From a bacterium (lineage in GTDB: Bacteria; Sumerlaeota; Sumerlaeia; SLMS01; JAHLLQ01): a DNA stretch of 64,000 bases. The notes under the pieces were generated by a model. That model was not told the DNA's origin and searched no databases. It saw only the letters and a program-made list of their open reading frames with translations. The position numbers and the translations under genes are program-made. Of this stretch, positions 7,994 through 11,843 are shown piece by piece; the stretch's first letter is position 1; each line of letters opens with the position of its first letter. The stretch is from contig JAHLLQ010000001.1 of NCBI GenBank assembly GCA_020444065.1, positions 1,116,001 to 1,180,000 on the forward strand, written 5' to 3'.

Positions 7994-9631
7994 TCAGTCG
8001 ACTTCGAAGATCAGAGTGCGTGGTCTTCGAATATCAAGCACGCAGGCAACAACATGCTCCCCGTCCGGGTTCCAGGACTTGCCGCCTCGGAATCCGAGCC
8101 CATTGATGCGGCACATCCCGGGGAACGCTGCCAAGGTGCGCAGCGCTCCACTTTCCAGATCCCACAGCTGCAGCCTCACTCGGGAACTCCCACGTGGCGT
8201 TGGCGCGGTCCTGGAGGCCAGAATGCACTTCGTGCGATCTGGCGATGGCTCGCTCATCACGACAACGATGTCGTCGCTCAACGGTAAGAGCGCCACGATC
8301 TTCTCTGGCGAGGCAGCGATCAACTCTATCCCATTTTCGGTCTCGGCGGGATAGATAGCGAAGTCATCCGCGGCATCGAAGAAGACGAAGGAGTCTTTGG
8401 AGTAGTGGTACCGCGGCAGGGGCCGCGTTTCTCCCGTTCGCCGATGATGCCAGGAGAAACTGCACCGATCCGGGCCGCCCTGAACGAGAATGAACGGTCC
8501 CTCCTTGGCATCCACCGCGGCGACATACTGGGGATAATCCTCTCCATCGAGAAACTCACCGGTCGACAGATCGCAGAAGATAAAGGGGTTCTCTTCATCC
8601 TCAATTGCATAGGAATCCTCGTAAGTCTCATTGAGTGCGAGGATGTTGTCGGTGATCCAGACGGCGTGTACGTATTTGCCAGGCAGTGTTATCGATGTGC
8701 CCAAGTCCAAATCGGTCAGGATGAAATGCCGGTTCGAAGACTCCCCTCCCAGGCTTCTCGTCAGCAGAATGCGACGATTCGGCGACCACGTACCATCGCC
8801 GTATGTTGAGTCGAATGGGAACGCACTGCCCGGAAGATCCTTCGCAATGGTCCGGCTTGAGTGATCTTCGAGGTTGTAAAGAAGCACATCGACCAGTCGC
8901 TCACCCTCGGTGATTGATTTATTCGAATGAAGAAGAGTAACTTGATTCTGCGAGTAGAGTTCTGCGAGTCGCCACTCTCCAGGCGACAGGTCCGCGTACT
9001 CAACCTCTCCATCCATTGCGATGAAGTACATCCGCCCCGCTCCACTGGCGTAGTCGGTACTTACGGCGATGAGGGGGAAGTTGACTTCGGGCACCCATTG
9101 GCAGTTCGAAAACACCAGCGAACCCTCTAAGTAAGCACCGCCCGCGTAGCGTTGGGAGGAGCCCAGGAAACTGCTGGCAACAATCGCGATCAGCAGAACG
9201 GTGATTCCCAGGAGCATGGGCCAGCGTCGCCCGAACCAAAGCACCGCCAATCCGATCACAGCAATGGAGACCGCAAAGACCCAAATGGGTTGCACCAGCC
9301 AAGGAAAAGTCCGGAATCCGATTCGCTGCGCCGCCAGATCGATGAGTGCCGCCACTGCCAGCAGCAATGTGACAACGAAAGCAACCCGAGACCGAATTTG
9401 AGATGCCTGCACGGCTGCGATCAGGAGGGAGAGAAATGCCGCCCCCGGCAGTGCGTATGGGAAGATCCGCATGGACCAGACATCCGGGGCGGCGAAGGCA
9501 AGCAGTGCAAGGACGATGACCCAGGCAACCGTGAGTACAGGTCGGGCCCAGGGGGAATCTTGGCGTTCAGGAGTCGGGGTGCCGGCTCCGGCGAACGCTT
9601 CCTTGAGATCGAAATCGCCTTGATGAGAAAT
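7994..9631 (-). CDS. membrane-anchored PD40/beta-propeller-like protein, probable ATT start (copy 1)
   Basis: A 545-residue protein if read from ATT at 9631; the first in-frame ATG is at 9472 and would start inside the second membrane helix. The extension encodes a hydrophilic N-terminus (SHQGDFDLKEAFAG) and an extra helix (PVLTVAWVIVLALLAFAAP), giving about five membrane segments in the first 160 residues. The rest is a soluble domain with PD40/TolB-like strands such as WSPNRRILLTRS, EPSPDRTKCILAS and SWNPDGEHVVACV, which suggests a propeller outside the inner membrane. No ATG, GTG or TTG exists in frame between the upstream stop and 9472. A GGGGAGGG ribosome binding site sits eight bases before ATT. 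It is paralogous to the gene ending at 10104. Function unknown. Confidence 0.8.
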   Translation of the reverse strand: MSHQGDFDLKEAFAGAGTPTPERQDSPWARPVLTVAWVIVLALLAFAAPDVWSMRIFPYALPGAAFLSLLIAAVQASQIRSRVAFVVTLLLAVAALIDLAAQRIGFRTFPWLVQPIWVFAVSIAVIGLAVLWFGRRWPMLLGITVLLIAIVASSFLGSSQRYAGGAYLEGSLVFSNCQWVPEVNFPLIAVSTDYASGAGRMYFIAMDGEVEYADLSPGEWRLAELYSQNQVTLLHSNKSITEGERLVDVLLYNLEDHSSRTIAKDLPGSAFPFDSTYGDGTWSPNRRILLTRSLGGESSNRHFILTDLDLGTSITLPGKYVHAVWITDNILALNETYEDSYAIEDEENPFIFCDLSTGEFLDGEDYPQYVAAVDAKEGPFILVQGGPDRCSFSWHHRRTGETRPLPRYHYSKDSFVFFDAADDFAIYPAETENGIELIAASPEKIVALLPLSDDIVVVMSEPSPDRTKCILASRTAPTPRGSSRVRLQLWDLESGALRTLAAFPGMCRINGLGFRGGKSWNPDGEHVVACVLDIRRPRTLIFEVD

Positions 9632-9706
9632 GGTTGTGCCCTCCCCGGCCCTCGCGCCAGAATCAAGGACAGTTGTTCACGGTGCGCTCGAAAGCGCAAT
9701 TGGGAA
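9473..9706. repeat. 5' block shared with 11610-11843 (copy 1)
   Basis: A 234-base stretch that matches 11610-11843 with about 16 differences by eye (roughly 93 percent). It covers the N-terminal 53 codons of the membrane protein, its ribosome binding site and about 75 bases of leader. The leader holds a perfect hairpin, GCGCT-CGAA-AGCGC at 9684-9697 (a TTCG loop when read on the minus strand). Beyond the block, toward the gene body, the two copies diverge strongly, so the 5' ends have been kept alike by conversion or selection. A 12-base word, AGTCAGTCGACT, marks the 3' ends of both gene copies (7992-8003 and 10076-10087). Confidence 0.92.
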
Positions 9707-9735
9707 TTCAGGCTCACTCCGCGAAAGGACAGCGC

Positions 9736-10077
9736 ATGCACCCAATCCCGTCGATCACACTTCTCCCCAGCCCAGAGATTCTGGAGCACAAGTGCCGCGT
9801 CCTCGCCTTCGTCAGCGAAGTCCTGCCGGCGCACTACGTGATGGGGCCGCTATTCATGGGATGCTACGGCACATTCACGCCGAGCGATCCGGATTGCGAC
9901 TCGTGGGAATCGAACCTCTTCGACACCTGGATCGCGCACGACCTGATCGAATTGATCATGGATGCCGACAGTTCCATCGCAAAAGGTGAAAAGGTATCCG
10001 CGGGCACGCCGACGGTCGTGAAGTGGAACCGCTTCGCCCCGTCGTACTCGCCAAACGCGTCGAACTACCCGCTGTAG
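9736..10077 (+). CDS. hypothetical 113-residue protein between the duplicated membrane genes
   Basis: I do not recognise this protein. The start at 9736 is chosen because AAAGGA lies six bases upstream and because the frame further upstream runs antisense to the conserved block of the neighbouring gene. It is soluble, with hydrophobic helices in the first half (EILEHKCRVLAFVSEVLP), three cysteines, an acidic middle (TPSDPDCDSWESN) and a C-terminal end PSYSPNASNYPL. There is no signal peptide. It is transcribed away from copy 1 and toward copy 2, and it is the only gene between the two copies. It could be part of the duplicated unit with its second copy lost, or an insertion that separated them. 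Confidence 0.6.
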   Translation: MHPIPSITLLPSPEILEHKCRVLAFVSEVLPAHYVMGPLFMGCYGTFTPSDPDCDSWESNLFDTWIAHDLIELIMDADSSIAKGEKVSAGTPTVVKWNRFAPSYSPNASNYPL

Positions 10078-10103: not shown

Positions 10104-11768
10104 CTACTCGACAGGCATGATGTGTAGAGCGGCGTATCGGAAACGATCGCACTCGAAGAAGAAATACCGGCTGTCCGGGCTCCAGATTTCACCTGGTTGC
10201 TGCGTGTTCGCAAAGCTCAGCCAATAGGATCCCCACCGAGTGAACAGCGGCTCCAGCGCCTTCGCCTCGAAATCCCACATGTAGAGTAGGGTGGTATTCA
10301 GTCCACGGGCGGACTCTTCCGTCTCGTATGGAACCAGTGCCTTCTTTCCATCCGGGGAGATGAAAATGTCGTCGGGCGGGGTCTCAAAGGGCCACGCGCG
10401 CCGAGCGACGACCGCATCAGGTGTCACAGCGACAAGATCGATCCCATCTTGTCCTCGGCTCGGGTAAACAAGGAGGCTGTCCGAGCGTTGAGATTCGATT
10501 GGGGCGTTGGGAGTATAGTAGAAATCCGGCATCGGACGCATTTTGCCATCAGTCCGGTTGTACCAGAAAAACTCTCTGTCACCTGCTCCAAACAAGATGG
10601 GCTCGAATTCCCCGATCTGTCGGACGAGTTCCTCCGAATGAATAGGATCGTCTGGTTCTGGGGTAATCTCCCCGGACTCGCAGTCGTAGAAGAAATAGTC
10701 GGTGGTTGAGACGCTGCGCTCGCCCACGTCGCGCTCTTTTCTTTTTGTCAGGACGAGCGTTCCATCCTGGAGCCATAATGCGCTGAAATACCCTGTTGGA
10801 AGCTCGGTTGCTGTCCCTTCCTCAAAGTCATTCAAAACAAGTCGAAAAGAGAATCCGATAGATTCCTCTTCAATACGATGAGCAGTAACGAAGTATCGTC
10901 GATCCGGCGACCAGGAGGAGATTCCCCGCTCAGGATTGGATAGCCAGGCGACATTGCGCATCTCTTGATCGCTGGTGATCAGCGTGTGATTTGTGAGATC
11001 ATAAACCGAGAGCGATACGGTCGACGTCGTTGCCGGATCAGAACAGCACATCAACGTCAGCTCGTCCGGGGAGTATCTCTGCCCGAGGTTCCATGCCCCC
11101 AGGCCCAGTGGATAGTATAGGAGATTGCAGTCTGTTTGGAAGTGGAGCAGAAGAGTCGGTCTCCCGGAGATCGTCATGGGAACAAGCGCCAGTTGCAGCT
11201 CGTCACCACCGTACCACTGGGCTGTGCAACCACTGACCAGAAACGCCCCGGTTTCTAACATTGCGCCCCGATTCCAGTGAGAAATGGAACGCACTAGAAA
11301 TCCCGTCGCAGCGAGGAGCAGCACAAACATTGCCGCGGAGATAGTCTTCCAGGTCATCGCGCCTTGCGTTCCCCACAGCGCAGCCAATCCGCCCAGGGCT
11401 AATACAACTGCGTAGACCCAAAGCGGTTGCATGAGCCAGACGGGCCTCCAGGCGGCATATCCCAGTGCAGCAAGAAGGCCGAGCAGAAGGACCGCCACGA
11501 TGCTGGAGAGGATGAGTAGAGCCTTGCCTTCAATGATCCGGGGTTGAAAGAAGGTCACCAGGAATCCTGCAGCAACCGCCCCCGGCAGCGCGTACGGGAA
11601 CAGGCGCATGGACCAGACATCCGGCGCGGCGAACGCGAGCAGTGCCAGGACGATGACCCAGGCAACCGTGAGTACGGGTCGTGCCCAGGGGGAATCTGGC
11701 CGTTCAGGAGTCGATGTATCGACACCGGCGAACGCTTCCTTGAGATCGAAATCGCCTTGATGAGAAAT
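10104..11768 (-). CDS. membrane-anchored PD40/beta-propeller-like protein, probable ATT start (copy 2)
   Basis: Paralogue of the gene at 7994-9631, 554 residues from ATT at 11768 (first in-frame ATG at 11609). The same N-terminal organisation is seen: hydrophilic start, then membrane helices around PVLTVAWVIVLALLAFAAP, FPYALPGAVAAGFLVTFF, ALLILSSIVAVLLLGLLAAL, PLWVYAVVLALGGLAAL and TISAAMFVLLLAATGFLV. The external part carries PD40-like strands SWSPDRRYFVTAH, ISPDGKKALVPY and IWSPDSRYFFFE. Identity to copy 1 is high over the first 53 codons and low in the propeller part, so the two proteins may share a membrane partner but sense or bind different things. Its leader hairpin and GGGGAGGG site match copy 1. 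Function unknown. Confidence 0.8.
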   Translation of the reverse strand: MSHQGDFDLKEAFAGVDTSTPERPDSPWARPVLTVAWVIVLALLAFAAPDVWSMRLFPYALPGAVAAGFLVTFFQPRIIEGKALLILSSIVAVLLLGLLAALGYAAWRPVWLMQPLWVYAVVLALGGLAALWGTQGAMTWKTISAAMFVLLLAATGFLVRSISHWNRGAMLETGAFLVSGCTAQWYGGDELQLALVPMTISGRPTLLLHFQTDCNLLYYPLGLGAWNLGQRYSPDELTLMCCSDPATTSTVSLSVYDLTNHTLITSDQEMRNVAWLSNPERGISSWSPDRRYFVTAHRIEEESIGFSFRLVLNDFEEGTATELPTGYFSALWLQDGTLVLTKRKERDVGERSVSTTDYFFYDCESGEITPEPDDPIHSEELVRQIGEFEPILFGAGDREFFWYNRTDGKMRPMPDFYYTPNAPIESQRSDSLLVYPSRGQDGIDLVAVTPDAVVARRAWPFETPPDDIFISPDGKKALVPYETEESARGLNTTLLYMWDFEAKALEPLFTRWGSYWLSFANTQQPGEIWSPDSRYFFFECDRFRYAALHIMPVE

Positions 11769-11843
11769 GGTTGTGCCCTCCCCGGCCCTCGCGCCAGAAT
11801 CAAGGACAGTTGTTCACGCCGCGCTCGAAAGCGCAATTGGGAA
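11610..11843. repeat. 5' block shared with 9473-9706 (copy 2)
   Basis: Second copy of the 234-base block. It holds codons 1-53 of the membrane protein, the ribosome binding site GGGGAGGG and a leader with the hairpin GCGCT-CGAA-AGCGC at 11821-11834. In the last 29 codons of the shared coding part the two copies differ at six places, and all six are silent third-position changes. This shows that this reading frame is translated and under purifying selection although it lacks a standard start codon. Amino acid changes are confined to a small hydrophilic patch (codons 16-24). Confidence 0.92.

Follow-up and report, generated by a model that had tools for sequence, protein, structure and literature searches.

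Two paralogous bacterial membrane-protein genes that very probably start at ATT behind an unusually strong Shine-Dalgarno sequence

Where does translation begin in the two paralogous membrane-protein genes of this window, the 64,000-nucleotide stretch of DNA that was analysed as a whole? In both copies the first ATG is preceded by 53 further open codons in the same frame, which include a complete extra membrane helix, and there is no ATG, GTG or TTG in the 68 codons that separate the upstream stop from that ATG. An earlier note on this DNA had described this situation, and its bases and coordinates are correct. In copy 1 the in-frame TGA is found 16 codons upstream of an ATT, and the first ATG is codon 54 (9472); the geometry of copy 2 is the same, with the first ATG at 11609. 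CTG occurs in the extension only inside the helix. The note had also placed a Shine-Dalgarno sequence eight bases before the ATT, which holds and can be refined, as the 3' end of GGGGAGGG is 7 nt and its GGAGG core 8 nt before the ATT, and CCGGGGAGGGCACAACC directly precedes the ATT at 9631 and at 11768. The features are listed here.

7994-9631, minus strand: coding sequence of copy 1 counted from the ATT, five helices followed by a beta domain
9473-9631, minus strand: 53-codon extension of copy 1, under coding constraint
9485-9541, minus strand: first membrane helix of copy 1, PVLTVAWVIVLALLAFAAP, within the extension (Kyte-Doolittle 2.29 over 19 residues)
9629-9631, minus strand: putative start codon ATT of copy 1
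9639-9646, minus strand: Shine-Dalgarno sequence GGGGAGGG of copy 1 (duplex energy -11.5 kcal/mol)
9677-9679, minus strand: in-frame upstream TGA of copy 1
10104-11768, minus strand: coding sequence of copy 2 counted from the ATT
11610-11768, minus strand: 53-codon extension of copy 2
11766-11768, minus strand: putative start codon ATT of copy 2
11776-11783, minus strand: Shine-Dalgarno sequence GGGGAGGG of copy 2
11814-11816, minus strand: in-frame upstream TGA of copy 2

A comparison of the two copies over the 53 extension codons gave 14 nucleotide differences, distributed 1/3/10 over codon positions 1, 2 and 3, and replacements in four of the 13 changed codons (P=0.0017 when the same changes are placed at random). 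In the other two frames the changes would be nonsynonymous in 12 of 12 and 10 of 11 changed codons. The differences are unevenly spread. Codons 1-14 are identical, codons 15-24 hold four replacements, all of them in codons 16-24, together with three synonymous changes, and look to be under relaxed constraint, and codons 25-53 hold six synonymous and no nonsynonymous changes (P=0.0003, random placement). The earlier note had reported six differences, all synonymous, and concluded that the frame is translated; the six are real in codons 25-53, but the four replacements in codons 16-24 were left out, and the substitutions can be taken as proof of translation only from about codon 25 on.

The codon-usage score points the same way. 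Below zero from the TGA to the ATT, it reaches +1.9 and +2.5 in codons 1-15, is negative again in codons 16-30 of both copies, and positive from codon 31 on, strongly so in the helix, and the other frames score badly. When the onset of coding was fitted without regard to start codons, it fell 3-4 codons after the ATT in copy 1 and near codon 33 in copy 2. When 1452 gene calls are ordered by the coding signal that lies above their first canonical start, the two extensions come 6th and 7th. A separate ranking was headed by an 'extension' at the window's left end, which was discarded as the apparent antisense of an amidase-like gene on the minus strand.

Standard gene finders would choose ATG 54, where the frame has its first canonical start, and the 5' region before it would then be untranslated or a relict whose conservation has some other cause. 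This is very unlikely, considering the 1/3/10 bias over codon positions, the pattern of six synonymous changes to none and the coding usage, all upstream of ATG 54, and the weak Shine-Dalgarno sequence at ATG 54 itself (-3.6 kcal/mol). Going by the sequence, the frame is translated and under coding constraint before ATG 54 is reached.

The Shine-Dalgarno sequence before the ATT is unusually strong, -11.5 kcal/mol as compared to a median of -5.8 and a best decile of -9.8 for ATG starts, and its 8-nt spacing is within the usual range of the genome. Such an arrangement is rare by chance; in random in-frame stretches of 69 codons from the genome, an ATT with GGAGG 5-10 nt upstream was found in 0.5%; for GGAGG before any one of eight near-cognates the figure was 7.8%. 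We also surveyed 2.06 of the 5.20 Mb of the genome, the 1452 gene calls mentioned above, for non-canonical codons scoring above every canonical start. This rule is permissive, control codons pass it too and there are 137 matches altogether, and the strength of the case therefore lies in the combination of evidence. Four ATT, ATC or ATA codons preceded at 5-10 nt by a GGAGG core beat all canonical starts, and at a spacing of exactly 8 these were copy 1 (score 8.7), copy 2 (6.4) and infC (4.1) only. The fourth match is an ATC with spacing 10 and a score of 3.6, and the gene concerned has a canonical start upstream of it. An ATC at C2:378164 was rejected as a near-cognate start, since the part that looks conserved still lies beyond a canonical codon found 46 positions further downstream.

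The gene infC encodes initiation factor 3 (IF3); it starts at AUU, AUC or AUA and is autoregulated by IF3. Its recovery by the survey served as an internal positive control. In this genome its start reads GGAGG-AATCAGCC-ATT, with the same 8-nt spacing as in the membrane-protein pair, and in the phylum infC has ATT, ATC or ATA behind a GGAGG-type Shine-Dalgarno sequence in most of 30 loci (L008 and L091-L119), usually seven codons before a conserved Asn. Thus, it is very probable that ATT is used in this organism together with discrimination by IF3.

Translation of the extension with initiation at the ATT is the best-supported reading of the sequence, and both genes very probably start there. 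Since no orthologues were found, we infer the start at exactly this codon. A start at some other non-canonical codon, such as the neighbouring ACC or TCT, an ACG or CTG in the helix, or a codon upstream of the ATT, would agree with substitution evidence that begins at about codon 25. It is nevertheless very unlikely, as the ATT is the only near-cognate codon of the extension with a strong Shine-Dalgarno sequence at a good spacing, and ACC and TCT each share at most one position with ATG.

The search for homologues covered 60 relatives, 40 genomes of the phylum and two GTDB contig scans, and neither protein searches nor searches with a two-row profile found any. Weak matches in the phylum (L010, L012, L016 and L019) were set aside, being apparently unrelated proteins whose hydrophobic stretches are similar. 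In genomes of the same family, the membrane-protein genes were not seen in the synteny around nadA.

The two copies can also be compared with each other beyond the limits of the extension. They share a block of 268 nt, which is 92% identical and contains the leader, the Shine-Dalgarno sequence, the ATT and the first helix.

9439-9706, minus strand: shared 268-nt block on the side of copy 1, a putative gene conversion tract
11576-11843, minus strand: shared 268-nt block on the side of copy 2

The surroundings of the ATT, from about -80 to +42, are almost completely identical, and past codon 75 the nucleotide identity drops to 0.35-0.55; the proteins are 36% identical overall. It is most likely that the shared 5' block, the ATT included, has been homogenised by gene conversion. 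This means that the two ATTs are one observation, and not two separate lines of support as the earlier note had treated them, and also that substitutions say nothing about codons 1-14. A sequencing error, or else a true indel or point mutation, by which a canonical start was lost or came to lie in another upstream frame, could have been copied from one gene to the other in this way, and there is a single assembly, but this too is very improbable because the other upstream frames have negative coding scores and no shared start preceded by a Shine-Dalgarno sequence, the two genes are elsewhere different from each other and uninterrupted for over 540 codons, and the Shine-Dalgarno sequence is correctly placed for the ATT.

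Counted from the ATT, the encoded proteins have five hydrophobic segments, the first inside the extension, and after them an all-beta region. With a pLDDT of 46.9 the AlphaFold model is too poor to reveal the packing of the extra helix; its secondary structure consists of helices followed by strands. Most of the matches listed by Foldseek are propeller proteins, including TolB, with low TM-scores. No sequence family was matched at 0.1, and the propeller profiles (PD40/WD40) gave no significant match, Pfam PD40 being below the cut-off with E=0.13. The beta domain is probably a propeller, judging from the model. The likeness to TolB/WD40-like beta-propellers concerns the fold only, through low-confidence model matches and the weak PD40 match, and the pair differs from them in lacking sequence family membership and in having five N-terminal membrane helices. 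With the extra helix the number of helices is odd, and the beta domain should then be located outside the cytoplasm; a start at ATG 54 would reverse the topology. If the ATT start is true, standard gene callers would remove a whole membrane helix and reverse the predicted topology with it.

It is likely that the genes form a pair of membrane proteins, with five N-terminal helices and a beta domain, that are initiated at ATT with a low, IF3-sensitive output from a gene-converted 5' block. In such a mechanism the unusually strong Shine-Dalgarno sequence, at normal spacing, would recruit the ribosome, and the AUU would presumably be read as Met by the initiator tRNA. Initiation at this weak codon would be inefficient, as for infC, and would respond to changes in the amount or the fidelity of IF3, which would keep both proteins low. 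The low yield and the IF3 dependence are predicted by analogy. The infC gene of the same genome resembles the pair in having ATT with GGAGG 8 nt upstream. Unlike the pair, it encodes the discriminating factor; the membrane proteins would be targets only, with no feedback implied. If true, this adds a gene pair other than infC that starts at AUU, from a phylum in which, as in the lineage itself, we know of no experimental data, and it supports a near-cognate start combined with a strong Shine-Dalgarno sequence as a general means of low, IF3-sensitive expression.

The earlier note had named infC and pcnB as the main precedents for such starts and regarded the pair as a new case. The pair is indeed another well-supported candidate, but not one of a new kind, as examples in cvfC1, ccpN, sigR and Nostoc have also been published. 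The pcnB gene of Escherichia coli starts at AUU and is translationally limited (Binns and Masters 2002, cited in PMC13009471). It is thus a case of AUU outside infC that is expected to limit expression, as in the pair, but it does not encode a membrane protein, and its start is experimental whereas that of the pair is putative. In Staphylococcus aureus, cvfC1 starts at AUU and ccpN at AUA, both near-cognate starts with unusually strong Shine-Dalgarno sequences, as in the pair, and reporters gave about 10% of the AUG output, for ccpN up to 30% in rich medium (PMC13009471). These two starts are conserved across species and were mapped by Ribo-Ret (PMC13009471), in contrast to the pair, which is lineage-restricted and known from sequence. 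The Streptomyces sigR gene has a non-canonical start that puts it under IF3 control, as predicted for the pair; its codon is GTC, and the control was demonstrated genetically (PMC5472188). In Nostoc, eight revised genes have ATA or ATT starts (PMC8557916).

Two other genes of the same genome were observed with possible non-canonical starts. A gene on the plus strand at C3:245934 (L168), named by sequence motifs as a TRAM-domain RumA-like RNA methyltransferase, has no in-frame ATG, GTG or TTG before its conserved N-terminus, and its candidate start is an ATC behind GAGGAACCGTC. In its orthologues from the same order, an ATG or GTG precedes the corresponding point by some codons, and the gene itself has a GTG in another frame just upstream; this is either another near-cognate start or an indel. 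At C1:1008471, on the minus strand, a GTT behind GGAGGGCGGTCGGTA nine codons before a TTG start is a weak candidate. It is conceivable, though doubtful, that AUU and AUC starts with strong Shine-Dalgarno sequences make up a small IF3-controlled set in this lineage, consisting of infC, the pair and perhaps the RNA methyltransferase, and that gene conversion spreads a weak-start cassette between paralogues.

The leader sequence is unique to the pair. Searches of it gave no Rfam match to a riboswitch and no sigma-70-like promoter, and its predicted fold is not better than that of shuffled sequences (z +1.28). A frameshift from another frame upstream was considered and rejected, there is no coding signal there. 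The shared leader contains a mini-frame of five codons, GTG-AAC-AAC-TGT-CCT-TGA, at 9663-9680 and 11800-11817 on the minus strand, which ends 31 nt upstream of the ATT, and its TGTCCTT can pair with the Shine-Dalgarno sequence in the predicted fold; being identical in copies 1 and 2, it gives no independent support. It was also possible to observe a short hairpin, GCGCT-TTCG-AGCGC, at the upstream edge of the shared block (9683-9698 on the minus strand, and 11821-11834 in copy 2), and an open frame of 147 aa on the plus strand (9634-10077), located between the copies and overlapping the leader on the opposite strand.
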